Shown here: in pieces, positions 1 through 60,495 of the stretch | Layout: every line of letters begins with the position of its first letter | Position numbering within the stretch: the first letter of the stretch is position 1 | From: a virus | IMG/VR virus record: IMGVR_UViG_3300020202_000083 | Coordinates: 1 to 60,495 of that record | Reading direction: 5' to 3' (one strand) | DNA: 60,495 bases | Notes under the pieces: model-generated | What the model was told of the DNA's origin: nothing | The model's input: the letters and a program-made list of their open reading frames with translations, nothing else | Databases searched by the model: none | Position numbers and translations under genes: made by a program

Positions 1-127
1 ATCGAAAAGCCGCCCGTGTCGTTCTCGGACGATCGAGGCTACATCAAGAACCTGCTGAACCGGCCGTGCGGTGGCGTGCAATTCATCTTCAGTCGAGCAG
101 GCTCTAAACGCAGCTCGCACTGGCACA
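1..127. repeat. Terminal overlap, left copy
   Basis: Bases 1-127 are identical to the last 127 bases of the window (60369-60495). This is a direct terminal repeat created by a circular or circularly permuted genome. The length of 127 matches a common largest assembler k-mer, so it is probably not a biological terminal repeat. The cupin gene reads without interruption through the join. Confidence 0.97.
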
Positions 128-37941: not shown

Positions 37942-38427
37942 TCAGAAGCCTAGTTCGTCATCATCGCCAGGTTCACGCATGCGCTTTTGGTTGCTGTTGC
38001 CTGACCCTGAAGCCTTGCGCTGCCGACGATCGAGCATGGCGCCCTTCATGCGCTCTTCGAGAGAGGCCACCTCATGGCTCTCCATCTTTTCTTTGACGTT
38101 CAGGCCGCCGCCGAGTGAGTTGACCCAGCGCACGCGCGAGTAGGTTTTGCCGTCCTGTCCGGTCTCGTGTTCGACGACGATCACGCACGGGCGGGAGCCG
38201 AGTCCACCGAGCTTGGCAAGGCTCTGCCCGTCCCAACCGGCGTTTTCGAGACTGTCGAGCGTGCGTTCATAGGTAGCGTCTGTGAAGAAGCCATACCAGG
38301 TGATCCGTTGGCCCTTGTCGTCGCCGTCGGCGATCTCGAAAACGATTGCGACTTGTTCCGTTCCCTTCGACGTTTTGCCGAAGGTCCATTCGCGCGCGAG
38401 CGCTTGGTAATGTCCTGGTTTGAGCAT
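37942..38427 (-). CDS. Single-stranded DNA-binding-like protein
   Basis: 161 residues, ATG overlapping the stop of the nuclease/ATPase gene by one base (TGATG). Beta-rich N-terminal 110 residues (AIVFEIADGDDKGQRITWYGFFTD...) fit an OB-fold or DUF669-like domain. The C-terminus is a flexible, basic linker ending in DDDELGF, the acidic-hydrophobic tail by which SSBs recruit partners. Coupling to a Sak4-like ATPase is a common phage recombination pair. Confidence 0.7.
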   Translation of the reverse strand: MLKPGHYQALAREWTFGKTSKGTEQVAIVFEIADGDDKGQRITWYGFFTDATYERTLDSLENAGWDGQSLAKLGGLGSRPCVIVVEHETGQDGKTYSRVRWVNSLGGGLNVKEKMESHEVASLEERMKGAMLDRRQRKASGSGNSNQKRMREPGDDDELGF

Positions 38428-40013
38428 CAAGCAGCCTCACTCTCAGCTAGTTTGGTTTTCAGAAAATCAACGAGTTGACAGAGCTTGCGGGTGTCGTTCC
38501 CGGCCCGTTCGATGGCGGCTTTCGCCCTGTCCTGTAGTTTCGGGTTTGCTCTGTCGATCAGCTGCTTGATCTCGACCATAACTTTCTCGACATCGAGGGC
38601 GCCGGCGCGCGTCGCCTGCTCAAACTCCTCCCAGTCGAGCGCCATCTCGTAAGGCAAGTTGTACTTGTTCTTTGCGTCCCAAGCTGGGCGATGTTCCGTG
38701 TACACCACGCGCGAGCCATCGCCGACGCCACGGACTCGGCCATCTTTCTCGCGGGTGTATATCCTGTAGTTGGCAAACAGCACAGCCTTCGGCCACTCTT
38801 TGATTAGGGCTGCCGCTTTGCCGTGGAGCTTGAGCTCGTAGCGGTCGTAGTCATCACCGACCGGGTTTCGGAAGGTCTTCACCTGACTGTGTGCCAGGAC
38901 AATGACGTGCATTCCCTTCTGCATATGCAGAACATCGAGCTTGTCCGTCAGTCTGCGCCACTCCTCGAGAGCGAGCACATAACCTTTGCCATAGCCGAAA
39001 TCCTCGATGGAGTCCTTCTTGCCCTCGCGACAGACGTAGTCATGGATCAACGGCTCGAGCCAATCGACCGTATCGATGGCAATCGTCTTGAAGTCGTGAT
39101 TGCTGTTGGCGAGCTCGTCTAGTGCTTCCACGCACCCTTCCCAACTGTCTGGTTTCGGGAATCGCGCGACATCGAGCTCTGACGTTCCGTTCTCCGAATC
39201 GAGAAAGACGGGGTTAGGAGCATTGGCGGCGAACGTGCTCTTTCCGATCCCTTCTGGGCCGTAGAGCACTACACGGAGCGGCGTTTGAAGGCGCCCCTTT
39301 CTCACATTCGATAGCTTCATGTTGGACATTCGGTTCTCCTTGCCTTGTTGCAGGTGTGATGTGTAGGCAGAGCACTTCGGGCGCGCACGACAGTAGAATG
39401 CGTCGCAATGCGGACCGGGATTCGCTGGCGTACGCTTGGCCAGTAGGTCTCCCATCAGTACGACCAACCGCGCCCTGTCATTCTCGATGTCGGCAGTCGA
39501 TCGTGCGACAACGTCGACCACGACCTTGCCAGTCTGCTTGTCGACGTAGTGAAACTCTGTGCGCTGCACGCCGGTCACGACGCTGGCGAAACGGAGCTGC
39601 CAGGCTTCGGTCGCGGGCACTCGTTTTTTCCCGGTCTTTAAGTCGATTATTGTCGTCTTGCTGACAATGTCGAGCGTCCCGGCAATGCCACTAACCAGGC
39701 CGTAGCCTCGACCGATGCGCTCGCCAATCTCTCGAGCTGAGCCGTCGGGTAGCAGCTCGTAGGCTACCTCGTGACGACGTGGCGACGGGAGGAGCGGCTT
39801 TCCGTGCCGCAGCCAGCCTTCGTACATAGCACGCACCAGACGTTCGGTTTCTTCGTCCTGTAGCTCAAGGCGGGCGCCGTATCCGTTTTCCACGAGCGAG
39901 TGGAATGCGGTACCAAACTGCGCGGCTGGCCCTGGGCGATCTGGAACGTAGATGTCCGTCCAGTGGAGGCACTGCACAGCTAGATCAAGTTTGGACGCGG
40001 TGAGTTTAGCCAC
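38427..40013 (-). CDS. Fusion: Cas4/RecB-like nuclease plus Sak4-like RecA-fold ATPase
   Basis: 528 residues from GTG 40013, which has GGAGG upstream. Residues 1-220 are a PD-(D/E)XK nuclease: His38, Asp115 in GTLDIV, and Asp124-x-Lys126 in IIDLKTGKK. Cysteines 15, 203, 208 and 214 are placed as in the Fe-S cluster of Cas4/AddB nucleases. Residues 230-528 are a RecA-like ATPase of the Sak4 type with Walker A GPEGIGKS (252-259) and Walker B IAIDT (311-315). Met229 has its own AAGGAG six bases upstream, so a separate 300-residue ATPase may also be made. Followed by an SSB-like gene. Together this is a likely DNA end-processing and strand-annealing module. Confidence 0.8.
   Translation of the reverse strand: MAKLTASKLDLAVQCLHWTDIYVPDRPGPAAQFGTAFHSLVENGYGARLELQDEETERLVRAMYEGWLRHGKPLLPSPRRHEVAYELLPDGSAREIGERIGRGYGLVSGIAGTLDIVSKTTIIDLKTGKKRVPATEAWQLRFASVVTGVQRTEFHYVDKQTGKVVVDVVARSTADIENDRARLVVLMGDLLAKRTPANPGPHCDAFYCRARPKCSAYTSHLQQGKENRMSNMKLSNVRKGRLQTPLRVVLYGPEGIGKSTFAANAPNPVFLDSENGTSELDVARFPKPDSWEGCVEALDELANSNHDFKTIAIDTVDWLEPLIHDYVCREGKKDSIEDFGYGKGYVLALEEWRRLTDKLDVLHMQKGMHVIVLAHSQVKTFRNPVGDDYDRYELKLHGKAAALIKEWPKAVLFANYRIYTREKDGRVRGVGDGSRVVYTEHRPAWDAKNKYNLPYEMALDWEEFEQATRAGALDVEKVMVEIKQLIDRANPKLQDRAKAAIERAGNDTRKLCQLVDFLKTKLAESEAA
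39327..39341 (-). promoter_or_regulatory. Internal ribosome binding site and start codon in the nuclease-ATPase gene
   Basis: On the minus strand AAGGAGAA (about 39341-39334) precedes an in-frame ATG at 39329-39327 with ideal spacing. It lies exactly at the boundary between the nuclease and ATPase domains, so translation may begin a second time here. Confidence 0.6.
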
Positions 40014-40200
40014 GCCCCCGCCCCTCCGGCATCGCCCTGCCCTTGTCGGTGAGTGCATACCCGATCGGCCGATTGCTCTCGGGCAAGTAGAACTCTAGCC
40101 AACGATGCACGTTGACGCGTTCAGCCTCGGACAGGGCCACAGCGAGCACGTGGGATAGTTCCGCGCCCTTACAGGCGATTCCGACGACGCGCTCAGTCAT
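40006..40200 (-). CDS. Hypothetical protein, 64 aa
   Basis: Overlaps the nuclease-ATPase start by 8 bases. Ala/Val-rich N-terminus and a Gly/Arg-rich end. No family recognised. Confidence 0.55.
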   Translation of the reverse strand: MTERVVGIACKGAELSHVLAVALSEAERVNVHRWLEFYLPESNRPIGYALTDKGRAMPEGRGRG

Positions 40201-42952: not shown

Positions 42953-43278
42953 GACGCTCTCCGAACGGGCGCGGAGGCCTCACTGTGCTTCGCGGCATCA
43001 CGAGCGCGTTCGCGATAGAACTGCGCAACGGCCTGGCGTGTCTCCGCGCTCGGTAGCTTGCCGCTCTTCGGGATGACACCGGCGGCTTCTGCTACCGCGC
43101 GCCAGTATTCATCGGGCCAAGTCGCTAGGTTACTGGCGATGCGCTCGCCGTCGCGAACAGGATGAAGCACCGGCTGACGGCTGCGATCACTGCAGATGCC
43201 ATCGATGACGCGCACGAGGGCGGTCGCTTTACGGTAGCGACCGGCTCGTTCGAACGGATTGCGTGCGGTGATGTTCAT
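42949..43278 (-). CDS. Hypothetical protein, 109 aa
   Basis: Start ATG 43278. The second half (ATWPDEYWRAVAEAAGVIPKSGKLPSAETRQAVAQFYRERARDAA) could hold a helical DNA-binding element. No named family. Confidence 0.55.
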   Translation of the reverse strand: MNITARNPFERAGRYRKATALVRVIDGICSDRSRQPVLHPVRDGERIASNLATWPDEYWRAVAEAAGVIPKSGKLPSAETRQAVAQFYRERARDAAKHSEASAPVRRAS

Positions 43279-43451
43279 TGCGCGATCTTTCGGAGAGGGA
43301 CGACATTCGACGGGCATTTCGTCAGCGCCGGTTTCGGCATGGGCACCGATCGGGGCGCCTCATCGATCGTTTCGCCCGACACGTCGGCCGTGCGCGGCGG
43401 TTCGCTTTCGCGCTCCTCCACAACGAGAAGCACCAGCACTGTGCGTTTCAA
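43275..43451 (-). CDS. Small protein, 58 aa; first gene of the leftward operon
   Basis: TTG at 43451 is preceded by a full AAGGAGG at 5-base spacing, which decides the start over the upstream ATG at 43490. A hydrophobic start (KRTVLVLLVVEE) leads to a soluble, Pro-rich remainder. It lies about 100 bases downstream of the leftward promoter/operator. Function unknown. Confidence 0.5.
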   Translation of the reverse strand: MKRTVLVLLVVEERESEPPRTADVSGETIDEAPRSVPMPKPALTKCPSNVVPLRKIAQ

Positions 43452-43557
43452 CAGGACCTCCTTCGGCAGCTGGGCCGAAGTCGGGTGCATCTCGGGACCG
43501 GGGGGGGACAGTCGCGCGAGACGCGCCCGCTTCGGAGCAGGGCCGGCTGACACACAA

Positions 43558-43587
43558 CAAGTAGCGCACTGGCTACGCAGTAGTCAA
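43558..43587 (-). promoter_or_regulatory. Leftward early promoter/operator
   Basis: Reading leftward: TTGACTACT, two bases, GTAGC, one base, AGTGCGCTACTTG. 27 of 30 positions equal the rightward element at 45549-45578. TTGACT is a good -35; the -10 is weak (TACTTG or CTACTT). GTAGC...GCTAC forms an inverted repeat suitable for repressor binding, and another CTAC/GTAG pair extends to about 43595. Confidence 0.7.
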
Positions 43588-43682
43588 CTAGCTACTAGAG
43601 CAATTCGACACGAGGGCAAAGAACGGCCGCTCGGCCGAGCTGTGTGGACATTGCTCGTCACTGGGTGCGGTACGACTCGTGG

Positions 43683-43691
43683 TTATCCACA
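43683..43691. promoter_or_regulatory. Single DnaA-box-like sequence
   Basis: TTATCCACA is a perfect match to the DnaA box consensus, in the gap between the leftward promoter and the ImmA-type gene. One nine-base match can occur by chance in a genome this size. Confidence 0.3.
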
Positions 43692-43714
43692 GCCGATGGA
43701 GTTATCGCTGACGC

Positions 43715-44314
43715 ATGGGCGGTATTTCAGCAGCAGAGATTGAAGGCGCTGCCGATGGGCTGCTTCGCTGGGCCGGAGATCAGGCCCCAGGCATTGTGGC
43801 CTTGGCGGAACGGTTGCTCGGGGCCGGTTGTGTGCGCGCAGTGCACGCTGGGGCGTTGCCCGGAGTGGCCGCTGTGGCCCGCGTGGGAGGCAACTGGCGG
43901 ATCTACATCCGCGCTAGGGCATCTGCGGAACAACAGACCTTCGCAATCGCGCACGAGCTCGCTCACTGGTGCTTAGGGGAAACGGCGACTGAGACCGAAT
44001 GCGATGCATTGGCTGCCGCCCTGGTGATGCCCTGGCGGCCGTACCTCGCCGCGGCGCGTTCTATCGGTCAGTCGTGGTCTGTTCTTGCTCAGCGGTTCGT
44101 CTGTACGGAGAGTGCCGTTGCGCTCCGCTGGGGTGAAGTTGTACATGATCCGCTGGTACTGATAGCGCCACGCGTTGTTCGTGTGCGGGGTGCCCCGTGG
44201 ACATGGCCGCATGATGAGCGCCAGCTACGCGGGTTGGCCAAGGCGAGCCGCGAAAACGTTAGCGTTTCGACCCTTGACGGCGATCACCGACGCGTCCTGC
44301 TCATCGCGGTCTGA
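43715..44314 (+). CDS. immA: ImmA/IrrE-type zinc metallopeptidase
   Basis: 199 residues. FAIAHELAHWCLGE carries the HExxH zinc motif typical of the ImmA/IrrE family, with a downstream segment TETECDALAAALVMPW giving the third metal ligand region. These enzymes cut phage or element repressors to start excision. Convergent with the XRE regulator gene (3-base gap). The neighbouring 259-residue repressor has no self-cleaving domain, which makes it a good candidate substrate. Confidence 0.85.
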   Translation: MGGISAAEIEGAADGLLRWAGDQAPGIVALAERLLGAGCVRAVHAGALPGVAAVARVGGNWRIYIRARASAEQQTFAIAHELAHWCLGETATETECDALAAALVMPWRPYLAAARSIGQSWSVLAQRFVCTESAVALRWGEVVHDPLVLIAPRVVRVRGAPWTWPHDERQLRGLAKASRENVSVSTLDGDHRRVLLIAV

Positions 44315-44316
44315 TT

Positions 44317-44586
44317 CTAGGTTTTGCGCGGTCTTCCGGTGCGTCTTGGTGTTTTCAGCCGTGGTTGCTCGAAGAGCGTCCCAACGTTGACGCCTAGGAC
44401 CTTGCTCAGGCGAACAAGGCTGCGCACACTCAGGTTTTCTGTGCCGCGTTCGATGGCCTGCCAGTAGCCAAGGCTCACGTTTGCCAGTTCTGAGATCTGT
44501 GCTTGCGTAAAACCACGCAGTCGGCGAAGCTCGGCGATCTTCCGGCCCAAGTTGACAAGGACTTGGTCCGCATCCTGTTGGGGCAC
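44317..44586 (-). CDS. XRE-family HTH regulator, 89 aa
   Basis: LGRKIAELRRLRGFTQAQISELANVSLGYWQAIERGTENLSVRSLVRLSKVLGVNVGTLFE is a complete HTH_3 domain (residues about 11-72). GTG start. A basic C-terminal tail (KTPRRTGRPRKT) follows. It may act with the larger repressor at the early operators or regulate immA. An AT-richer segment upstream (44610-44660) is a likely promoter. Confidence 0.85.
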   Translation of the reverse strand: MPQQDADQVLVNLGRKIAELRRLRGFTQAQISELANVSLGYWQAIERGTENLSVRSLVRLSKVLGVNVGTLFEQPRLKTPRRTGRPRKT

Positions 44587-44661
44587 CGGGCCGCAGTACA
44601 GGAGCGACGCTGGAGAAAAGACTTACTTTTAGGTGAGGCTTTGAAAGGAAACAGGCGGGAG

Positions 44662-44892
44662 ATGCAGCACAGACCAAAGGGGGACTACTGGGTGGGCTAT
44701 GCTCGGTGTGGCCGTTACTGGTCGGCGGCCATTTATCTTCATGATTGCGGTGAGTACCACCTAGCGCACGTTGCGACGGGGTCGTGGAGGCACGTTCGAA
44801 GGGCGGCTTGTTTCGCCCCCGCCCTTGCCTCGCTTCTTGCCGCCGAGCGTGGCGGGCCACATCTTGACGCTGCTCCGCGCGTCGTCCGCTGA
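44662..44892 (+). CDS. Doubtful small protein, 76 aa
   Basis: ATG 44662 has GGGAG directly upstream and the frame fills the short gap between the XRE and repressor genes, but the last 132 bases overlap the end of the repressor on the other strand. The first 40 residues (HRPKGDYWVGYARCGRYWSAAIYLHDCGEYHLAHVA) look protein-like. It may not be expressed. Confidence 0.3.
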   Translation: MQHRPKGDYWVGYARCGRYWSAAIYLHDCGEYHLAHVATGSWRHVRRAACFAPALASLLAAERGGPHLDAAPRVVR

Positions 44893-45540
44893 GACCCCCT
44901 TCTCGGTGTCCTTTGTGACAACTCGTTCACCTGGAGGGGCTTGGCGGTGCTTCTTAGCGAAGCGCTCTGCCGCGAGCTGATTGTCAAAGAAGATGAACGC
45001 GTCGATTTCGTCGATCTGTTCTGCGTCGATGAAGTCCGACGAGCCGACCAGTTCGTCCACCTTGCGCTTATCGTACCGCTCGTAGAGACGCTCGCGCACC
45101 TTTTTGAGGCTGCCCCGACGGTCAGCTTCACGCTCCGTCTCGTAGACGCGGGTAATGCCGGGCGATGGTGTGTCCGCAGGAGGCGCCACGACCTCCCGCC
45201 GCGGTGGCTTCACTTCCTCTTGTCCAGCATGGGTAACGACCCTCGGTGGCACCGGCACGCTTGGCGACGGCCAGGGACCTCGACCGAAGGCCAGCCATTC
45301 TTCAGAAACACCGAACGCGTTGGCTAACTTCTTGATGACCGGCGGCTTTGCTTCGTGTTGCCTTCCGTTGAAAAGCTTTCCCAGGAGACCGCGCGAGATT
45401 TCGTGCTCCTCCTCGACCCTCGTTGCAGGTGGGAGCTTCCCCGTATCCGGATCAAGCGGAAGGCAGTGGTAGGCATACCAGACGCGAGCGCCCAAGCTCA
45501 TGTCCACATGTTGCCATGTAGCTACCTGAAGAATCGACAT
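44761..45540 (-). CDS. Phage repressor (CI-like), 259 aa
   Basis: Residues about 40-90 hold an HTH_3-like domain (ISRGLLGKLFNGRQHEAKPPVIKKLANAFGVSEEWLAFG). The middle is a Pro-rich linker; the rest is charged and helical (SLKKVRERLYERYDKRKVDELVGSSDF), with a Lys/Arg/Gly-rich end. No peptidase S24 (LexA-type) self-cleavage domain is visible. Start may be ATG 45540 or 45501. It lies divergent from the Cro-like gene, with a shared operator between them, the classic repressor position. Confidence 0.72.
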   Translation of the reverse strand: MSILQVATWQHVDMSLGARVWYAYHCLPLDPDTGKLPPATRVEEEHEISRGLLGKLFNGRQHEAKPPVIKKLANAFGVSEEWLAFGRGPWPSPSVPVPPRVVTHAGQEEVKPPRREVVAPPADTPSPGITRVYETEREADRRGSLKKVRERLYERYDKRKVDELVGSSDFIDAEQIDEIDAFIFFDNQLAAERFAKKHRQAPPGERVVTKDTEKGVSADDARSSVKMWPATLGGKKRGKGGGETSRPSNVPPRPRRNVR

Positions 45541-45548
45541 GAAGCGGA

Positions 45549-45583
45549 TTGACTACTAGGTAGCGAGTGCGCTACTTGGTAGT
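45549..45583 (+). promoter_or_regulatory. Rightward early promoter/operator
   Basis: Reading rightward: TTGACTACT, two bases, GTAGC, one base, AGTGCGCTACTTG, then GTAG. It contains two near-equal palindromes CTACTAGGTAG (45553-45563) and CTACTTGGTAG (45573-45583), 20 bases apart. GTAGCTAC at 45518-45525, inside the start region of the repressor, may be a third site. The leftward early promoter carries the same element. Confidence 0.7.
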
Positions 45584-45587
45584 GGAG

Positions 45588-45872
45588 ATGGTCGCGCAAT
45601 ACGTCAGCCGCTCGAGCACCGCGCTCGCGAAAGTCATGGATGAGATCGGCGTCGGAAAGCTCGCCGAGGACACCGACATCCACCGAACGCAGCTCTGGCG
45701 GTATTCGACGGGCCGCAGCAAGCCAGACGCTGATCAGATCGCGAAGCTGCATCGGGCTACCGGCGGTCGAGTTGCGGCCGACGGCTGGGAGACACTCGCC
45801 CAGTCTGACACCGAAGAAGACGCGCGACCTGCTGAGCCTAAGCCGGCCGGCAACCCAAGCGCTGCGGAGTAA
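45588..45872 (+). CDS. Cro-like HTH regulator, 94 aa
   Basis: LAKVMDEIGVGKLAEDTDIHRTQLWRYSTGRSKPDADQIAKLHRATGG forms a Cro/CI-type helix-turn-helix. ATG 45588 was chosen because the upstream in-frame GTG (45567) lies inside the operator. If the promoter at 45549 is used, the message would start almost at the ATG, so it may be leaderless. First gene of the rightward early operon. Confidence 0.7.
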   Translation: MVAQYVSRSSTALAKVMDEIGVGKLAEDTDIHRTQLWRYSTGRSKPDADQIAKLHRATGGRVAADGWETLAQSDTEEDARPAEPKPAGNPSAAE

Positions 45873-45948: not shown

Positions 45949-46155
45949 CTAAGATCCAGCGCCCAACGTCCGGGAAGCACGCGCAGCGGCCTCGTAGCAG
46001 ACGATCTGCCCGCCGTCGCAGCTCACAGCAACTATGTCCCCGTTGGTGGGGTCGCGCGTGAGTCGGTCGTAGTACCAAGCTGGCCCCCCGCTCCGTCCGC
46101 ACGCGAGCAAGAACGCCAGGACGGTGGCCAATCCAAGAAGAGCGGTTCTCGCCAT
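45949..46155 (-). CDS. Small lipoprotein, 68 aa
   Basis: ARTALLGLATVLAFLLACGRSGG is a signal peptide with lipobox LLAC. The mature part is short with two further cysteines. It is the second gene of a two-gene unit on the opposite strand to the early genes, 3 bases after the larger lipoprotein. This is a typical place for lysogen-expressed genes. Confidence 0.6.
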   Translation of the reverse strand: MARTALLGLATVLAFLLACGRSGGPAWYYDRLTRDPTNGDIVAVSCDGGQIVCYEAAARASRTLGAGS

Positions 46156-46158
46156 GGT

Positions 46159-46596
46159 TCATTGGCGGGTGGCAACCTGGTCGTAAGTGCTCGCGCACCC
46201 ATCGCCGCTGAACGGGTCCGTGATGACGATCGAAAGCGTACCTGTGATGCGCTCGCCGTCGGCGTCCTGCTGCTCAGTAAAAGCGACTATCTCGGAAACG
46301 AAGCCCGTTTCGGGATCCAGGCACCGAATCGATCTGTCGAGTCGGCAGCCGTCAGAGCTCCATTGGTCAGGCTGGACGAACTCGCAGTCAGCAAGAGCCT
46401 CGCCTTCACCACCCGCCTCGTAGCGAACGACCTGGTCCGGAAACTCGCCGCACGTGCCGTTAGCGCGCTGGTCGTAGCTGATGACGTACGTGCCCACGCG
46501 ATCGGTCTCCGGATCGCACGTGAACGAGTTTTCATCTTCGCCTCCACAGCCGACAAGCCAAACCGTCAACAGTGCCGCAATTGAGAGTTTTTCCAT
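46159..46596 (-). CDS. Cys-rich lipoprotein, 145 aa
   Basis: EKLSIAALLTVWLVGCGGEDENSFTC has a signal peptide with lipobox LVGC and a following acidic GGEDE. Six more cysteines (FTC, GTC, ADC, DGC, IRC, DGC) and the pattern VGTYVISYDQRANGTCGEFPDQVV...CASTYDQVATR resemble small lipoproteins common in Myxococcota. Start ATG 46596; ATG 46614 is possible. Likely made in lysogens; exclusion of other phages is a plausible but unproven role. Confidence 0.6.
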   Translation of the reverse strand: MEKLSIAALLTVWLVGCGGEDENSFTCDPETDRVGTYVISYDQRANGTCGEFPDQVVRYEAGGEGEALADCEFVQPDQWSSDGCRLDRSIRCLDPETGFVSEIVAFTEQQDADGERITGTLSIVITDPFSGDGCASTYDQVATRQ

Positions 46597-46849
46597 GATC
46601 GCTGCGAAAACCATGACCACCTGCGGAAATCAAGCAACGCCAGCCTTGACGTTGCGCAGGGCCGCTGCTGCCCGTTTGCGTCGCCTGGTGTGCGCTTCTG
46701 GTCTCAGCACGGAAGAGATCGCGCGGCGTTACGGGCTTGGCGTGCGGACTGTGCAGCGACTGATCGCCGGTAAAACCAGGATGACGGGACTCGAGCTCCT
46801 GTGTGCGCTCGAAGCTGACGTGGCGAATGACGTGAAGGAGGCGGCGTAG
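46595..46849 (+). CDS. Small HTH protein, 84 aa
   Basis: LRRLVCASGLSTEEIARRYGLGVRTVQRLIAGKTRMTGLELLCALEADVA is a helix-turn-helix DNA-binding domain. Its ATG overlaps that of the divergent lipoprotein (CATG); a second ATG at 46613 would avoid this. Could serve as a CII- or control-type regulator in the early operon. Confidence 0.65.
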   Translation: MIAAKTMTTCGNQATPALTLRRAAAARLRRLVCASGLSTEEIARRYGLGVRTVQRLIAGKTRMTGLELLCALEADVANDVKEAA

Positions 46850-52710: not shown

Positions 52711-54125
52711 GCGAGCACCTAGTCCCGCCCAGTGATCTCGACGCTGAGGCGACCGTGCTGTCAGCCGTGCTGGTTCAGAAAGGCGCGCTGGAGGAAGTCG
52801 ACCATTTTCTGAAAGCCGCGCACTTCTACGCCGACGCCAATCGATGGATCTGGGAAGCCGTCACCGATCTCGCGAGCGCTGGCAAACCGACGGATCCCAT
52901 GATGGTCGCAGGCTGGCTACGCGACCACAACCGGCTGGCTCAGGTAGGTGGGGCCTCCTACATCGCGCAGCTCGTCGAGACAGTGCCGCCCACCGTGCGA
53001 CTCGCGGCGACGGCCATGCGCATCGTCGACAAGTGGCGATTGCGTCGCATCATCGACGAGGCACGGGCCATCGTGGCCGAGGCCTACACGAACGCGGATG
53101 ACGTGGCGGGGTTTGTGCAGAGGGCCGAGGCGCGGATCTTCGGTGCCAGCCAAAGCCTTGTGCGGACCAGCACGATCGCGTCCGCCGGCGAGGTGATGCG
53201 AGAGTGCATCGAAGAAGCCCGCGAGACGCGGGACGGGAGTCGACCGCGCGGCATATCGACCGGCTTTGCGTCTCTCGACAAGCGCATCGGTGGGCTACGC
53301 GGTGGCCGCGTCTACGTGTGCGCTGGCCGCCCCGGCATGGGCAAGACCTCCTTCGCAACCAAAGCTGCGCGCACGCTGGCCAAGTCGACTGCTGAGCGCC
53401 GTGGGGTCTTCTTTGCCTCGGTCGAGATGCCTCGAAAGCAGATTGGAGATCGGTTGATTGCTCAAGAGGCGCAGCTCGATACGCGGGCCGTCGAAATGGC
53501 GATGATGAATCGTGGCGAGTGGGAAGACTACACGAACGCTGCGAATCGTATCGCGCAGTGGCCACTCATCATCGAGGACCGCGGCGGCCTGACGCTGTCC
53601 GACCTGCGGAGTTCGCTCAGGCGAGCTGTGCGCAGGCTCGAGTCGGTGCACGAGACCAGCCTGGGGCTCATCTGCATCGACTACCTGCAGCTGATGAGCA
53701 CGGCCGACCTTGGCAAGGGCATGGACCCAAATCAGCGCCTAGAGCTTCTGAGCGCAGCTTTGGTTGCGATTGCCAAGGAGTTCGACGTGCCTGTGGTTCT
53801 GCTTTCGCAGCTCAATCGCGAGTGTGAGAAGAGGGTCGACAAGAGGCCGATCCTGGCAGATCTGCGCGGCTCTGGCGCTATCGAGCAGGACGCGCACACC
53901 ATCATCTTTTTTTACCGCGAGGACGTTTACCGCGCACCGGGCGACGCCAAGGATCGCTCCGCCGAAATCATCGTCGCCAAGGCGCGCGGAGGGCGCACCG
54001 GCACCGTGAGGGCGGACTACCTCGAATACTGCACGGAGTTTCTAGATCGAGTGGACGATGACCCACACGACGCATTCGCTCGACAGTTCGACGACTTCGT
54101 CACAAGTGAGGCTGCAGCAGAATGA
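52707..54125 (+). CDS. dnaB: Replicative DNA helicase DnaB
   Basis: 472 residues, full length for DnaB. The N-terminal domain (residues 8-150; DLDAEATVLSAVL...HFYADANRWIWEA) is followed by a RecA-like helicase domain with Walker A GRPGMGKT (207-214), Walker B IDYLQ (324-328), the SQLNRECEKR arginine region and DLRGSGAIEQDA. It unwinds the fork as a hexamer. GTG start overlaps the loader gene; its stop overlaps the start of the first glycosyltransferase, linking replication and glycan genes in one operon. Confidence 0.95.
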   Translation: MSEHLVPPSDLDAEATVLSAVLVQKGALEEVDHFLKAAHFYADANRWIWEAVTDLASAGKPTDPMMVAGWLRDHNRLAQVGGASYIAQLVETVPPTVRLAATAMRIVDKWRLRRIIDEARAIVAEAYTNADDVAGFVQRAEARIFGASQSLVRTSTIASAGEVMRECIEEARETRDGSRPRGISTGFASLDKRIGGLRGGRVYVCAGRPGMGKTSFATKAARTLAKSTAERRGVFFASVEMPRKQIGDRLIAQEAQLDTRAVEMAMMNRGEWEDYTNAANRIAQWPLIIEDRGGLTLSDLRSSLRRAVRRLESVHETSLGLICIDYLQLMSTADLGKGMDPNQRLELLSAALVAIAKEFDVPVVLLSQLNRECEKRVDKRPILADLRGSGAIEQDAHTIIFFYREDVYRAPGDAKDRSAEIIVAKARGGRTGTVRADYLEYCTEFLDRVDDDPHDAFARQFDDFVTSEAAAE

Positions 54126-56620
54126 CCACCCCAAAAATCTCCCTAGCCATGATTGTTCGGGACGACGAATCGACGATCGAGGCGTGTCTCCAGTCAGCGC
54201 GTCCGCACGTGGACGAAATCGTTATTTGTGACACTGGCAGCAGTGACCGAACGCCCGAGATCTGCCGCAAGTACGCTGACAAGTGGGAGCTGTTTTTGGG
54301 CGCGAACGACGAGGAGGGTCGAATCGTCGACTTCGCTATGGCGCGCAACAAGAGCTTCGCCATGGTGACCGGAGAGTTTGTGCTCTGGCTCGATGGCGAC
54401 GATGTTCTTCGCGGCGGTGAACACCTACGCAAACTCGCGGCAGAGTCGACTCACGAATACGTCCAATACCTCTTCCCCTACGAGTACGCACGCGATGATG
54501 CCGGCAACGTAACGCTGCTACAGATGCGCGAGCGACTGATGCACCCGCCTCACGCGCAGGTCTGGCGAAGCCCGGTGCACGAGTACTGCGTCTGCGAGTC
54601 GAACGGGGCACCCGTCCCGATGATCGTCTGTGACGAGGTCGTGGTAGAACACCATAGCCGTCAATCGACCAAGCAGCGCGAGCCTCAGCGGAACCTCCGC
54701 ATCCTAAAGAACTACGTCCAGCGCGTCGGCGAAAGTGACGTGCGAGCGCTGTACTACATTGGCGTGGAGTACGCGGCGGCCGGAGACATTGGCAATTCGC
54801 TGCGTTACCTAAAACGCTACGTTCAGCTCGCGGATTGGGACGACGAGAAGTGCAAGGCGCTGCTCTCTATCGGCGAGCACTACCGGCAGATCGGCGACCA
54901 CGACGAGGCCATCCGCTGGACCACCCAGGCCATGACCACCAAGAGCTGGCCGGAGCCCTATTTCGCGCTCGGGAGGAGCTACTACGCCATGGCTGAGCGC
55001 GGCGAGCATCCCGAGAAGAACTACCGACGCGCGGCGTTCTTCATCGTCAAGGGGCTTGAACAGCCGACAGATCCGGTGCTCTTTGCCAACCCGCTCGATC
55101 GGTTTGCGATCCACGCTTACCTGAACGTTTGCTTTCACGCAGTGGGTGACCACGAGCGTGCGCTCTGGTCGTGCGAGGAGGGACTCAAGGGTCTGCCGGG
55201 CCATGGCGTACTGCTCAATAACGCCAAGGAGTACCGGAAGGCCAAGGCGCGGAGCGCGGTAGCGAGCGGGATCGATGAGCTCGAGAGGCTAGAGGCCATC
55301 CCGCCGACACAGGTTGCGCTCCTGCGCGCTGCTCTCAAGGGGCAGCTCAACATTGAAACAGACTTGCCGGCTCAGGCGAATGGTACGCAGGGAGAACCTG
55401 CGGCGGCCGATGCTGTTGGGGCCCATGAAACAAAGCCCGAGCCCGGCTTTCTGGACGTCGTTCTCTTCTTGGGCCCCGCGCTCGAACGCTGGACGCCGGA
55501 GACGTGGGCAAAGACAGGAATGGGCGGCAGCGAAACGATGGCCTGGGAAATGGCTCGGCGGCTGCGAAAGCTCGGCCACCGCGTGCGCGTCTACACCGAC
55601 TGCACACCCGCCCAAGAGGGACTCTACGAAAACGTCGAGTGGTTGCAATGGCAGCGCTTCCGCCAGGTTGAGTGCGACGTTTTGATCGCGAGCCGGTTCC
55701 CGTGGGCGGTTGACGATGCGGTGAGGGTTAACGACGTGGAGATTGGTGGCTGCAAGGCGACGGTGCGACTCTTGTGGGTCCACGATTGTCACGTAGGTGA
55801 GCACTTGGACCTGCGGCGCGCTGCCCGGTTCGATCGAATCCTCTGTCTGAGCCAGTGGCACAAGCGCTTCTTCGTCGGTTGCTACCAGGGGATCGATGCG
55901 GACAAGGTGTACGTCACCAGAAACGGCATCGACCTCGCTCGGTTCGATGGCACCGAGGAGCGCAATCCGCATCGCGCAGTGTACAGTTCAAGCCCAGACC
56001 GCGGGCTGCTCGCCGCCGTCATGGCCTGGCCGAAGGTGCGCGAGCAGGTCCAGGACGCGGAGTTACATGTGTTCTACGGCTTCGGGAATTGGGAGAAGAG
56101 TGCGCAGGGTGACCAGGCTCAGCTAGGACAGGTCGCACACCTGAAGCAGCTGTGTCGGTCAACCGCTGGTGTGGTGCTACGCGACCGAGTGAATCAGAAG
56201 CAGCTAGCGCGAGAGTTCATGCGGGCAGGAGTGTGGTGCTACGGAACCTGGTTCTCAGAAACCTCGTGCCTGACAGCGATGGAGGCCCAGGCCGCCGGCC
56301 TTCACATCGTGACGTCGCCTATCGCTGCGCTCGTCGAAACCGTCGGCGACCGTGGCGTGATGCTGAAAGAGCCATGGGGCGGAGACAGTTTCCCGCCGCC
56401 TCCGCCTCGGACTGAGTTCGTTGCAGAGCTCGCTGAGAAAACAATCCAGGCAATGCACGCGGCCGGTATTGGCCCAAACGAGTACGGCATCGACTACGCC
56501 CGCGAGCACTTCGGCCTCGACACTCTCGCTGACAACTGGTCGGCAATGCTGATCGAGATGGTCGAGGACATGCGGGAGCGCGTGGTGCCGGCATTCAAGG
56601 ATTGGGAGGCTGCGGAGTGA
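54122..56620 (+). CDS. GT2-TPR-GT4 fusion glycosyltransferase
   Basis: 832 residues. Residues 1-190 are a GT2 family enzyme (ISLAMIVRDDESTIEACLQS...EIVICDTGSSDRT...FVLWLDGDD, with the metal-binding DGDD). Residues about 195-390 are TPR-like helical repeats (ALYYIGVEYAAAGDIGNSLRYLKRYV; ALLSIGEHYRQIGDHDEAIRWTTQAM). Residues about 445-832 are a GT4-type enzyme (MGGSETMAWEMARRLRKLGHRVRVYTD; KVYVTRNGIDLARFD; YSSSPDRGL; SCLTAMEAQAAGLHIV). Two transferases in one chain could add two sugars in sequence. Directly follows dnaB. Confidence 0.88.
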   Translation: MTTPKISLAMIVRDDESTIEACLQSARPHVDEIVICDTGSSDRTPEICRKYADKWELFLGANDEEGRIVDFAMARNKSFAMVTGEFVLWLDGDDVLRGGEHLRKLAAESTHEYVQYLFPYEYARDDAGNVTLLQMRERLMHPPHAQVWRSPVHEYCVCESNGAPVPMIVCDEVVVEHHSRQSTKQREPQRNLRILKNYVQRVGESDVRALYYIGVEYAAAGDIGNSLRYLKRYVQLADWDDEKCKALLSIGEHYRQIGDHDEAIRWTTQAMTTKSWPEPYFALGRSYYAMAERGEHPEKNYRRAAFFIVKGLEQPTDPVLFANPLDRFAIHAYLNVCFHAVGDHERALWSCEEGLKGLPGHGVLLNNAKEYRKAKARSAVASGIDELERLEAIPPTQVALLRAALKGQLNIETDLPAQANGTQGEPAAADAVGAHETKPEPGFLDVVLFLGPALERWTPETWAKTGMGGSETMAWEMARRLRKLGHRVRVYTDCTPAQEGLYENVEWLQWQRFRQVECDVLIASRFPWAVDDAVRVNDVEIGGCKATVRLLWVHDCHVGEHLDLRRAARFDRILCLSQWHKRFFVGCYQGIDADKVYVTRNGIDLARFDGTEERNPHRAVYSSSPDRGLLAAVMAWPKVREQVQDAELHVFYGFGNWEKSAQGDQAQLGQVAHLKQLCRSTAGVVLRDRVNQKQLAREFMRAGVWCYGTWFSETSCLTAMEAQAAGLHIVTSPIAALVETVGDRGVMLKEPWGGDSFPPPPPRTEFVAELAEKTIQAMHAAGIGPNEYGIDYAREHFGLDTLADNWSAMLIEMVEDMRERVVPAFKDWEAAE

Positions 56621-57226: not shown

Positions 57227-57891
57227 GAATCAACATCGCCTGTGGCGGCAACATCTTCCCCGGCTGGGTGAACTCCGACCTCGTGGACATGAACGAAGCT
57301 TATCTCCGGCACCTCCGCGGTCTCGCCGTCGCGCAGATGCACGGATGGCCACCGGGGCAGATCGAACTCTCGCGCGCCATCACGGAAGGTCGTGTGCAGT
57401 TCTTCCAGTGGGACCTGCGCAAGGGCTTTCCGATGTATGCGGACGGCAGTTGCGAGAAGCTGTACCTGGGTCAGGCCTGGGAGCATCTTCACCCGCACCG
57501 TGAAGCGCCGGCACTCGCAAAGGAGTGCTTCCGGCTGCTTGAGCTCGGCGGCGTCATGCGTATCACCACGCCGGACATCAAGAAGATCCTGGGCCTCTAC
57601 AACGACGGCAGGCTCAGCGAGATAGCCCCAGAGCAACCGGCGTTCTTCGCGTCAGCGAGCCCAGAAGCGCAGCTCTCCTACCTGCTCTTCGGGGCATCAG
57701 GCGACGACTGCACCCGCGAGGATTATCACGGCCACTTTCACGTCTGGAGTGAAGCAGATCTGACGGAGCTGCTCGTGTCAGTCGGATTCAGCAGCGTCGA
57801 GCGATGCGACGAGCCGAGCTTGGAATTCAAGTATGCCGGTGTTCAGGACTTTGGGATCTCGCACAGCATGGGAATCGAGGCGGTGAAGTGA
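57223..57891 (+). CDS. SAM-dependent methyltransferase-like protein
   Basis: 222 residues, class I methyltransferase fold: INIACGGNIFPGWVNSDLVD (motif I region of the predicted SAM-dependent type), WDLRKGFP, LYLGQAWEHLHPH and ECFRLLELGGVMRITTPDIKKI. Related proteins occur in glycan operons and methylate sugars. ATG 57223 overlaps the preceding stop. Confidence 0.8.
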   Translation: MRINIACGGNIFPGWVNSDLVDMNEAYLRHLRGLAVAQMHGWPPGQIELSRAITEGRVQFFQWDLRKGFPMYADGSCEKLYLGQAWEHLHPHREAPALAKECFRLLELGGVMRITTPDIKKILGLYNDGRLSEIAPEQPAFFASASPEAQLSYLLFGASGDDCTREDYHGHFHVWSEADLTELLVSVGFSSVERCDEPSLEFKYAGVQDFGISHSMGIEAVK

Positions 57892-58991
57892 TTCGCATCG
57901 CGATTGTCGCCACGGGCGCACATGCTCTCCCGTCGCCTAGCTTTACCGGTGACAGCCAGATCATCATCGATCTCTGCATCGCCCTGACTGAGCTCGGACA
58001 CTGGGTCACGCTACTTGCTCCGAAAGGGACGGTGTCACCGCCAGGCGTCAGGCTCTGCGAGGACCTGCCGGTCGGTGCTGGGTTCGAAGAAGCCTGCGCT
58101 GACGTTGGCCAGCTGCTAGCGATGTCTAACACGGTCGACGTCTTCCACGACTTCTCGATCGGCAAGACGGTACACGGGCAGTGTAGCCGGCACGGCTTTC
58201 CAAGCATCAGCACCATCCTCGGCGGCTGCGCCTACAAGCCCCTGCGAAATACCGTCGTGTGGTCCGAAGCCATGCGAGACCGTGTGATGCGCGGAGCGAC
58301 AGACTACGAAGGCACACAATGGCCGGACAAGGGCGGGCAGCAGTGCGAGCCGTTCAAGGACGTGCGTGTCGTTCACGGCGGAGTTGATACGGAATTCTAT
58401 TCGCCGGGCCCACCCGACCAAGTCGGGGATCACTACCTATGGCTTTCACGCTGGAGTCCCGAGAAGGGCCCGCTGGAAGCCGTCGAGCTCGCCAAGGCCA
58501 CCGGCATCGAGCTCGTGATGGCCGGGCTTTCGCCGGAAGCGTTGCCGCCTGCTGAAGGGCGCATTGCGGCGAAGTGTCTGCAGGCTGCTCAGGGTTTTAG
58601 CAACATCAGCTTCCAGTGGCTGGCGCCGGGCGCCGGACATCACGAAGCGAAGCGGGAGCTGCTGCGACAAGCTCGATGCTTCCTTGCGCCTCTGCAGTTT
58701 CAGGAGCCGTTTGGGCTAGGCATGGTGGAAGCCATGGCGTGCGGCACGCCCGTCATCGCCACCAGGATGGGTAGCGCCAGGGAACTCATCGGTGGTGGCT
58801 TGACTCTCGTTGGGATGAAAGAGCAGGCGCTTGAGAATCGTGGGCCCTTCGAGCCACTCGACAAGTGGCGCGCTCAGAAGCGGCGCAAGGCAGCACGCAA
58901 ACGCGCGGTGCGGATGTTCGACCGCAAGGTGATGGCCATGAACTACGTCAGGCTTTACGAAGAAGTGTGTGGAGGCGGCGGATGGGGATGA
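57888..58991 (+). CDS. Glycosyltransferase family 4 enzyme
   Basis: 367 residues from GTG 57888. GT-B fold: N-terminal part with DSQIIIDLCIALTELGHWVTLLAP; C-terminal part with VVHGGVDTEFYSPG, YLWLSRWSPEKG and the donor-binding EPFGLGMVEAMACGTPVIAT (EX7E). Transfers a sugar from a nucleotide donor to a growing glycan at the cytoplasmic membrane or to a protein. Confidence 0.88.
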   Translation: MIRIAIVATGAHALPSPSFTGDSQIIIDLCIALTELGHWVTLLAPKGTVSPPGVRLCEDLPVGAGFEEACADVGQLLAMSNTVDVFHDFSIGKTVHGQCSRHGFPSISTILGGCAYKPLRNTVVWSEAMRDRVMRGATDYEGTQWPDKGGQQCEPFKDVRVVHGGVDTEFYSPGPPDQVGDHYLWLSRWSPEKGPLEAVELAKATGIELVMAGLSPEALPPAEGRIAAKCLQAAQGFSNISFQWLAPGAGHHEAKRELLRQARCFLAPLQFQEPFGLGMVEAMACGTPVIATRMGSARELIGGGLTLVGMKEQALENRGPFEPLDKWRAQKRRKAARKRAVRMFDRKVMAMNYVRLYEEVCGGGGWG

Positions 58992-59257: not shown

Positions 59258-60369
59258 TGCGTTTCTCGCTCTTGTACGGACCCTTCTGCCTCTCGTTCCG
59301 CAAAACGCTCGACCTCGACACCTGGCGCACAGACCCGCGTGGCTTGTCGGGCTCGGAGATGTGCGCCGTCAGGCTTTACCAGGAGCTGCAGGCGCTTGGT
59401 CATGACGTCGAGTTCTTCAGCATCGGCAACGGTTGCTCACCTTGGGAGAAACGCGGCGAGTGGACTGGCGACGTCGCCATCAGCATCAACGTGCCTGACG
59501 ACCTCCGCGGAATGCGTGCCAAGGTGCGAGTCTGCTATGCGCTGTTGAACGATTTCAGCTTCTGTAAGGTCGGCTTCGAGGAGCACGTCGACCTGTTCCT
59601 CTCACCGTCTGCAGCGCACCGCGACCAGTGCCTCAACAATCCCGACTGGCGCAAAGTCGAGGTCACACCGGACCACTCGAACGGCAAGGCGCAGTGGGAC
59701 CCGTCGGGCAAGCCATGGGCGGCCGTCGCGCTTGGTTGCGATCCAGAGCGCTACGACGGCTTCGAAAAGGTCCCGGGGCGCGTCGTCTACGTGAGTTCGC
59801 CTGACCGTGGGCTGCATCTACTGCTGCAAGAGTGGCCAAAGATCCGCAAGGCCGCGCCGCACGCAACCCTCAAGGTGTTCTATCGGGTGCGCGATTGGAT
59901 CAACTCCTGGGCGGGCGTACCGTTCTATCCATCAATTGAGCGTCAGCGCCAGCGCGCCATCTACATCGACGAATGTTTGCGACGTCTCGAGGGCTACGGC
60001 GTCGAGCTCGTGGATGCGGTGAGCCGGGAGCAGCTCGAGCGGGAGTTAGGGCAGGCCGAGGTGCTGGCGTTTCCCTGCGACCCCGTTAACAACTTTACCG
60101 AGGGCTTCAGCGTGGCGACCCTCGAGGGTTGCGCCGCTCGCGCGTGCCCTGTCATCAGCGACGCAGACGCGCTCGGTAGCATCTACCACGAGGCATGTGT
60201 CGTGGTGCCGCGCGGGCGCTGGGACGAGTGGCGAGAGCATGTGATCGATGTGCTGCGCGACGAGAAGCGCCGCGAGCACGTGAACCGGATGGCAGTGGAC
60301 TTTGCCCGGAGGACAACGTGGAGTCACACAACGCAGCGAATCATGAATCTAGTGCAGGAACGCCTGTAA
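59257..60369 (+). CDS. Glycosyltransferase family 4-like enzyme
   Basis: 370 residues; ATG shares one base with the previous stop. GLSGSEMCAVRLYQELQALGHDVEFFSIGNG and YVSSPDRGLHLLLQEWPKI closely resemble the GT4 part of the 54122-56620 protein, indicating common ancestry. FTEGFSVATLEGCAARACPVISDADALGSIY is the donor-site region. Its end overlaps the true start of the cupin gene at the circular junction. Confidence 0.82.
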   Translation: MRFSLLYGPFCLSFRKTLDLDTWRTDPRGLSGSEMCAVRLYQELQALGHDVEFFSIGNGCSPWEKRGEWTGDVAISINVPDDLRGMRAKVRVCYALLNDFSFCKVGFEEHVDLFLSPSAAHRDQCLNNPDWRKVEVTPDHSNGKAQWDPSGKPWAAVALGCDPERYDGFEKVPGRVVYVSSPDRGLHLLLQEWPKIRKAAPHATLKVFYRVRDWINSWAGVPFYPSIERQRQRAIYIDECLRRLEGYGVELVDAVSREQLERELGQAEVLAFPCDPVNNFTEGFSVATLEGCAARACPVISDADALGSIYHEACVVVPRGRWDEWREHVIDVLRDEKRREHVNRMAVDFARRTTWSHTTQRIMNLVQERL

Positions 60370-60495
60370 TCGAAAAGCCGCCCGTGTCGTTCTCGGACGA
60401 TCGAGGCTACATCAAGAACCTGCTGAACCGGCCGTGCGGTGGCGTGCAATTCATCTTCAGTCGAGCAGGCTCTAAACGCAGCTCGCACTGGCACA
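60318..60495 (+). CDS. Cupin gene, 5' part (continues at base 128 through circular join)
   Basis: GTG at 60318 has GGAGG at 60308-60312. The frame overlaps the end of the glycosyltransferase gene by 52 bases, crosses the terminal overlap and joins the cupin frame at bases 1-369. The 22 residues ahead of the apparent start at base 16 are polar. This shows that the circular closure is correct. Confidence 0.75.
   Translation, partial: MESHNAANHESSAGTPVIEKPPVSFSDDRGYIKNLLNRPCGGVQFIFSRAGSKRSSHWH
60369..60495. repeat. Terminal overlap, right copy
   Basis: Identical to bases 1-127. The unique genome length is therefore 60,368 bases. Confidence 0.97.

Follow-up and report, generated by a model that had tools for sequence, protein, structure and literature searches.

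Paired two-dyad elements flanking a phage immunity region: probable left and right operators of a lambda-like module with its own operator sequence

The immunity region of the phage studied here is flanked by two near-identical elements that face outward, and we read them with good confidence as the operator-promoter regions at the left and right of a lambda-like immunity module. The window, which is the whole stretch of DNA analysed, comprises the 60,495 bases of the record; it carries a 127-base direct terminal repeat (window 1-127 and 60369-60495), which makes it probable that the phage genome is complete and circularly closed. The same two-site element is present at both early blocks, so one repressor could silence both. 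The initial annotation had proposed coordinated control of the OL/OR kind by an unrelated operator. This reading is supported by the uniqueness of the elements in the genome and by a dyad geometry appropriate to a helix-turn-helix (HTH) dimer, and it fits their position at the head of the two outward operons. Its chief support comes from a distantly related phage, MW202476.1, whose module is flanked at corresponding positions by another paired operator.

The left copy of the 30-base element lies at 43558-43587 on the minus strand (TTGACTACTGCGTAGCCAGTGCGCTACTTG) and the right copy at 45549-45578 on the plus strand (TTGACTACTAGGTAGCGAGTGCGCTACTTG). Their coordinates and outward orientations, as well as the agreement at 27 of 30 bases, are as first described. 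The genome scan with the motif that had been proposed as a check gives two matches in the 60,495-base window at up to three mismatches, and the 30-mer pattern has no match in 100 dinucleotide shuffles. An all-against-all 30-mer comparison identifies the pair as the sole inverted one in the 60.5-kb record with at least 25 of 30 bases equal. Four GTAG/CTAC words within 44 nt likewise occur only at these two places genome-wide (shuffle mean 0.095). The pair is real and far beyond chance, since it is absent from the shuffles and no other inverted pair reaches 25 of 30.

The conserved unit on each side consists of two tandem 16-bp dyads of the GTAGC-N6-GCTAC type with a 3-bp gap, giving a 19-bp period. 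The array includes the inverted GTAGC/GCTAC repeats reported for the 30-base unit and begins 8 bp upstream of that unit. Read on the minus strand, the left array is GTAGCTAGTTGACTAC-TGC-GTAGCCAGTGCGCTAC, with half-sites in the order GTAG-N8-CTAC-N3-GTAG-N8-CTAC. Its distal dyad, OL1, occupies 43580-43595; its proximal dyad, OL2, at 43561-43576, is a perfect GTAGC/GCTAC dyad that is also marked by half-site clusters. The right array reads GAAGCGGATTGACTAC-TAG-GTAGCGAGTGCGCTAC on the plus strand and is followed by TTG-GTAG. The upstream half of its distal dyad, OR1 (45541-45556), is imperfect and weaker, and support for that half alone is modest; its proximal dyad, OR2 (45560-45575), is again perfect. 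The proximal dyads agree with each other at 15 of 16 positions, and OL1 agrees with the other operators, its distal partner OR1 among them, at 12 of 16.

In a genome scan with a position weight matrix (PWM), the four best matches are OL1 (the top-scoring site), OL2, OR1 and OR2, with the next match at shuffle level; the matrix was built from these four sites, OR1 included, which makes the result circular for them and informative for the absence of other strong sites. A dyad with one mismatch (GTAGCTACATGGCAAC; 45510-45525, minus strand) lies near the repressor gene start. It is listed only as a speculative third right operator, because chance alone would give 1.5 one-mismatch dyads in the genome. 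Some partial matches that lie before the XRE gene, at 44683-44702, are not prominent in the PWM scan and were dropped. The half-sites of a dyad are spaced by about 11 bp, close to one turn of the helix, and the dyad therefore suits an HTH dimer. The two arrays together look like functional operators.

The left array stands before the first ORF of the leftward operon (43275-43553, minus strand, GTG start), whose 92-aa product gave no family match when one was sought. The same operon encodes an exonuclease-Sak4 recombination protein (exonuclease plus Sak4-like annealase) at 38427-40058. Between the arrays are genes for an ImmA/IrrE-type (Peptidase_M78) protease (43715-44314, plus strand; HEXXH motif in the form HELAH, Pfam E 1.4e-11), an 89-aa XRE-type HTH protein (44317-44586, minus strand) with the strongest HTH match of the three HTH proteins, and a 259-aa HTH protein (44761-45540, minus strand), the candidate repressor. 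The 259-aa protein matches PHROG repressors and, at E 9.9e-5 and just under the curated cut-off, HTH_3; its long C-terminal part has no family match. Its gene is divergent from that of a Cro-like protein (45582-45872, plus strand; start at GTG 45582 or ATG 45588), which is so assigned from weak HTH matches and from its position. The rightward side, which opens with this Cro-like gene, includes an integrase, a replication initiator and DnaB. Searches of Pfam, PHROGs and NCBIfam found no S24/LexA-type (self-cleaving) domain in any module protein. Codon-position GC, a weak test, is compatible with the first ORFs being genes. The structures modelled for the 259-aa protein and the Cro-like protein, with a mean pLDDT of about 48, are too poor to use.

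Just downstream of the Cro-like gene, two minus-strand ORFs (45949-46155 and 46159-46620) run antisense to the rightward side. Both products are lipoprotein-like, with a signal peptide and then a cysteine, and lysogenic conversion is a possible role for them; from their style we suspect a myxobacterial host. The larger of the two has no relative in plasmids. A small HTH ORF downstream of these putative lipoprotein genes (46481-46849, plus strand) could encode a regulator or an excisionase-like protein. Beyond DnaB on the rightward side, PHROG matches indicate glycosyltransferase-like genes at 54122-56620 and 57804-58991 (plus strand).

A search for the ImmA-type protease in 50,697 phage records yielded a single relative, MW202476.1 (Caudoviricetes sp., Manatee Spring; 77,056 bases). 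Its metallopeptidase is 50% identical over 159 residues to that of the window, and further genes of the two phages match at 53%, 36% and 32% identity. The gene order is the same in both: a leftward operon, ImmA (plus strand), a repressor candidate (minus strand) and a Cro-like gene (plus strand). The repressor candidate of the relative (L016 9540-10064, minus strand) is our reading of the ORFs; the deposited annotation instead places different small ORFs on the other strand. A motif scan of related phages had also been proposed as a check; in MW202476.1 the module is flanked by paired operators, though not by the GTAGC motif. The GTAGC operator is absent from this phage, where one single-mismatch dyad lies well outside the module, at 31.7 kb.

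MW202476.1 instead carries its own 18-bp candidate operator, CGTCMAATGTGYTTGACG, unrelated to the GTAGC motif. The copies in its left and right intergenic regions (CGTCAAATGTGTTTGACG and CGTCCAATGTGCTTGACG) are alike at 16 of 18 positions, a level that none of 150 shuffles reaches. The whole 77-kb sequence contains exactly two copies of the 18-mer at up to three mismatches; they face outward and are about 1.3 kb apart. After the main copies, the best-scoring matches of the 18.5-kb locus (14 of 18 and 13 of 18) lie 32 and 31 bp from them, one per side. These weaker second sites are close to the first start codon, and it follows that MW202476.1 also appears to have two sites per side. In both phages, on the left and on the right alike, the main operator contains TTGAC in its downstream half, against a chance of about 1.3% per 20-nt stretch. 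A separate ORF of the relative (L016 13612-14889) contains a lengthy stretch of SSLESSLGSSLWSSL-type repeats in its central part.

The two modules thus share their gene order, a homologous ImmA, paired outward operators and the position of TTGAC. They differ in that MW202476.1 has an operator of 18 bp with a 31-32 bp period and lacks the extra XRE gene. The layout is kept and the operator letters differ, as expected of heteroimmune relatives. No recognisable sequence similarity is seen between the repressor and Cro-like proteins of the window and those of MW202476.1. A joint change of specificity and operator would lead one to expect this; that the repressor was replaced independently is just as possible. 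A common repressor lineage is left unsupported by the sequences, and the relative is a single case.

The -35-like TTGACT described for both elements is present, at 43587-43582 (minus strand) inside OL1 and at 45549-45554 (plus strand) inside OR1. In each distal dyad it falls in the downstream half, whose half-site is ACTAC instead of GCTAC, as may be expected if a -35 box must persist inside the operator. A simple sigma70-type promoter scan passed nothing at either element. TTGACT itself is a good -35 hexamer, and the hexamers 17-18 bp further on (CTACTT/TACTTG) are poor as -10 boxes. With the scan empty and the -10 hexamers poor, the assignment of promoters rests on the -35 and on position.

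By hand count, the first base of TTGACT lies 34 bases from the GTG of the left operon and either 33 (GTG 45582) or 39 (ATG 45588) bases from the Cro-like start. The first base of TTGAC in MW202476.1, also counted by hand, is 35 bases from the start codon on the left (ATG at L016 8785) and 40 bases on the right (ATG at L016 10151). The left side of the relative has TTGACG, 17 bp later TAATAC, and then ATTGGAC-ATG. With a normal promoter, such short distances would cause the transcript to begin at the start codon or a few bases from it. Both first genes of the window lack a well-placed Shine-Dalgarno sequence; since this is also true of about half of the sampled genes, leaderless lytic mRNAs are a prediction and not a result. 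Leaderless mRNAs have been described for the repressors lambda cI and paaR2 (PMC8630535); here we propose them for the lytic side.

An element that is oriented alike relative to the transcription of both early operons, and whose GTAGC-N6-GCTAC could form a 5-bp stem, might instead act in RNA, as a conserved nut/put-type hairpin that the two early transcripts share and that recruits an antiterminator. However, the longer hairpin on the right is not retained on the left (fold z -2.24 and -0.72, respectively), and the repeated 19-bp dyad array and the overlap with the -35 fit a DNA site. The 33-39 bases from the start of the element to the start codon also leave little room for an upstream promoter, above all on the right. 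We consider this reading very improbable. Even less credible to us are the ends of a transposon or invertible cassette or the sites of a recombinase, although two inverted repeats that contain internal dyads and are separated by about 2 kb could have that appearance. The cargo consists of immunity genes, neither transposase nor invertase is encoded inside, and the sequence next to the ends shows no target duplication. Both readings are made much less likely mainly by MW202476.1, where the same cargo is flanked by unrelated paired DNA palindromes in the same places.

The lambda-like operator reading leaves the identity of the binding protein to be weighed among the three HTH proteins encoded in or beside the module. 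Our most likely candidate for the main repressor, favoured with moderate confidence, is the 259-aa protein. The likeliest alternative to the reading preferred here, though we think it rather unlikely, is that the arrays are bound by the 89-aa XRE protein, whose HTH match is the strongest, or by the Cro-like protein alone, and that the 259-aa protein has another role. MW202476.1 has no separate small XRE gene in this region, and its single repressor candidate is divergent from the Cro-like gene, as is the 259-aa gene.

In the mechanism that we propose, each 16-bp dyad would be bound by one HTH dimer. The distal dyad would cover the -35 (TTGACT) and the proximal dyad the -10/start region of the outward early promoter. 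In a lysogen, repressor dimers would occupy both arrays and shut both early operons, with the Cro-like protein as a probable competitor for the same sites. The right array abuts the start of the repressor gene and may allow autoregulation. Because the repressor candidate shows no self-cleaving S24 domain, induction is likely to proceed via the ImmA-type protease, with cleavage of the repressor relieving repression. What we observe is a sequence unique in the genome, the geometry of its dyads, the arrangement of the genes and the recurrence of that arrangement with another operator in the relative; binding, promoter activity, autoregulation and ImmA action are inferred.

The module resembles the OL/OR system of lambda, with its CI and Cro proteins, in having paired arrays of several similar operators at two outward early promoters, here predicted ones, that flank the repressor gene. 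The HTH repressor gene is divergent from a Cro-like HTH gene, here with weak HTH matches, and recombination genes lie to the left and replication genes to the right. Lambda has three sites of 17-18 bp with unrelated letters, in contrast to the two clear 16-bp dyads per side with a 19-bp period seen here. The present module also contains an ImmA-type protease and shows no self-cleaving S24/LexA-type repressor, which is a trait of lambda itself and not of all lambda-like switches. The spacing of OL and OR in lambda is about 2.3 kb (PMC5880393), and that between the arrays here about 2.0 kb.

In the ImmR/ImmA modules of ICEBs1 and TnSmu1, an HTH repressor gene lies near an ImmA/IrrE metalloprotease gene, and it has been proposed that ImmA may cleave the ImmR-type repressor (PMC10233336). 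Here too a candidate repressor gene lies near a gene for an M78 metalloprotease with a HEXXH motif (HELAH), which by analogy is likely an anti-repressor. In contrast to those modules, the genes do not form a single operon, the module is flanked by two arrays, and the repressor candidate has its long C-terminal part without a family match. Evenly spaced palindromes at divergent promoters are also a feature of the PaaR2/YdaS system of CP-933P, where CI-like and Cro-like proteins bind them; in the excerpt considered, that array is described at one place, and its sequence is different (PMC8630535).

Searches for further copies of the motif and for relatives of the module proteins were largely negative. 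An exact motif scan of viral contigs gave no match. The relaxed TTGACT-form scan gave one in-gene match in two contigs of one phage, which we attribute to chance. When viral contigs were scanned by half-site order, the left order turned up a single unrelated contig together with hicAB-like promoters; the right order matched one unrelated site and, once, the inside of a gene. No relatives of the 259-aa protein were found in viral contigs, phages or plasmids, and its sole genome-contig match (Kribbella, L007) falls within a different gene and is due to chance. Neither the Cro-like protein nor, in viral contigs, the integrase returned a relative, and a search of PDB sequences gave nothing useful. 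The exonuclease-Sak4 protein led to two distant loci, both without dyads.

Four viral contigs have two GTAG-N8-CTAC dyads with the same 3-bp gap and 19-bp period in a promoter region beside an XRE gene (L009 4165-4199, L010 325-359, L011 3009-3043 and L012 7161-7195). The genes downstream are presumably hicA/hicB-like. By analogy, these sites suggest that XRE proteins can use the two-dyad geometry; homology to the present switch is not claimed.

The lambda-type arrangement is well known, and the predicted operator sequence has no match in the collections searched. For a phage without a close known relative, the operator, the repressor and a likely route of induction could be predicted from sequence alone. 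Comparison of the two phages suggests that the dual-operator plan is retained while the operator sequence changes. This leaves the general picture of temperate-phage control as it was; a plan that is kept while its letters change is instructive, if not surprising to a specialist. More tentatively, and as a proposal that we rate at somewhat less than even, the two phages may represent a heteroimmune temperate lineage with a fixed plan of ImmA, repressor, Cro-like protein and paired operators with an embedded -35, in which operator letters and period turn over and both lytic operons are leaderless. The leaderless lytic transcripts are a prediction of interest: if it is true, the promoter would be wholly covered by the two operators.
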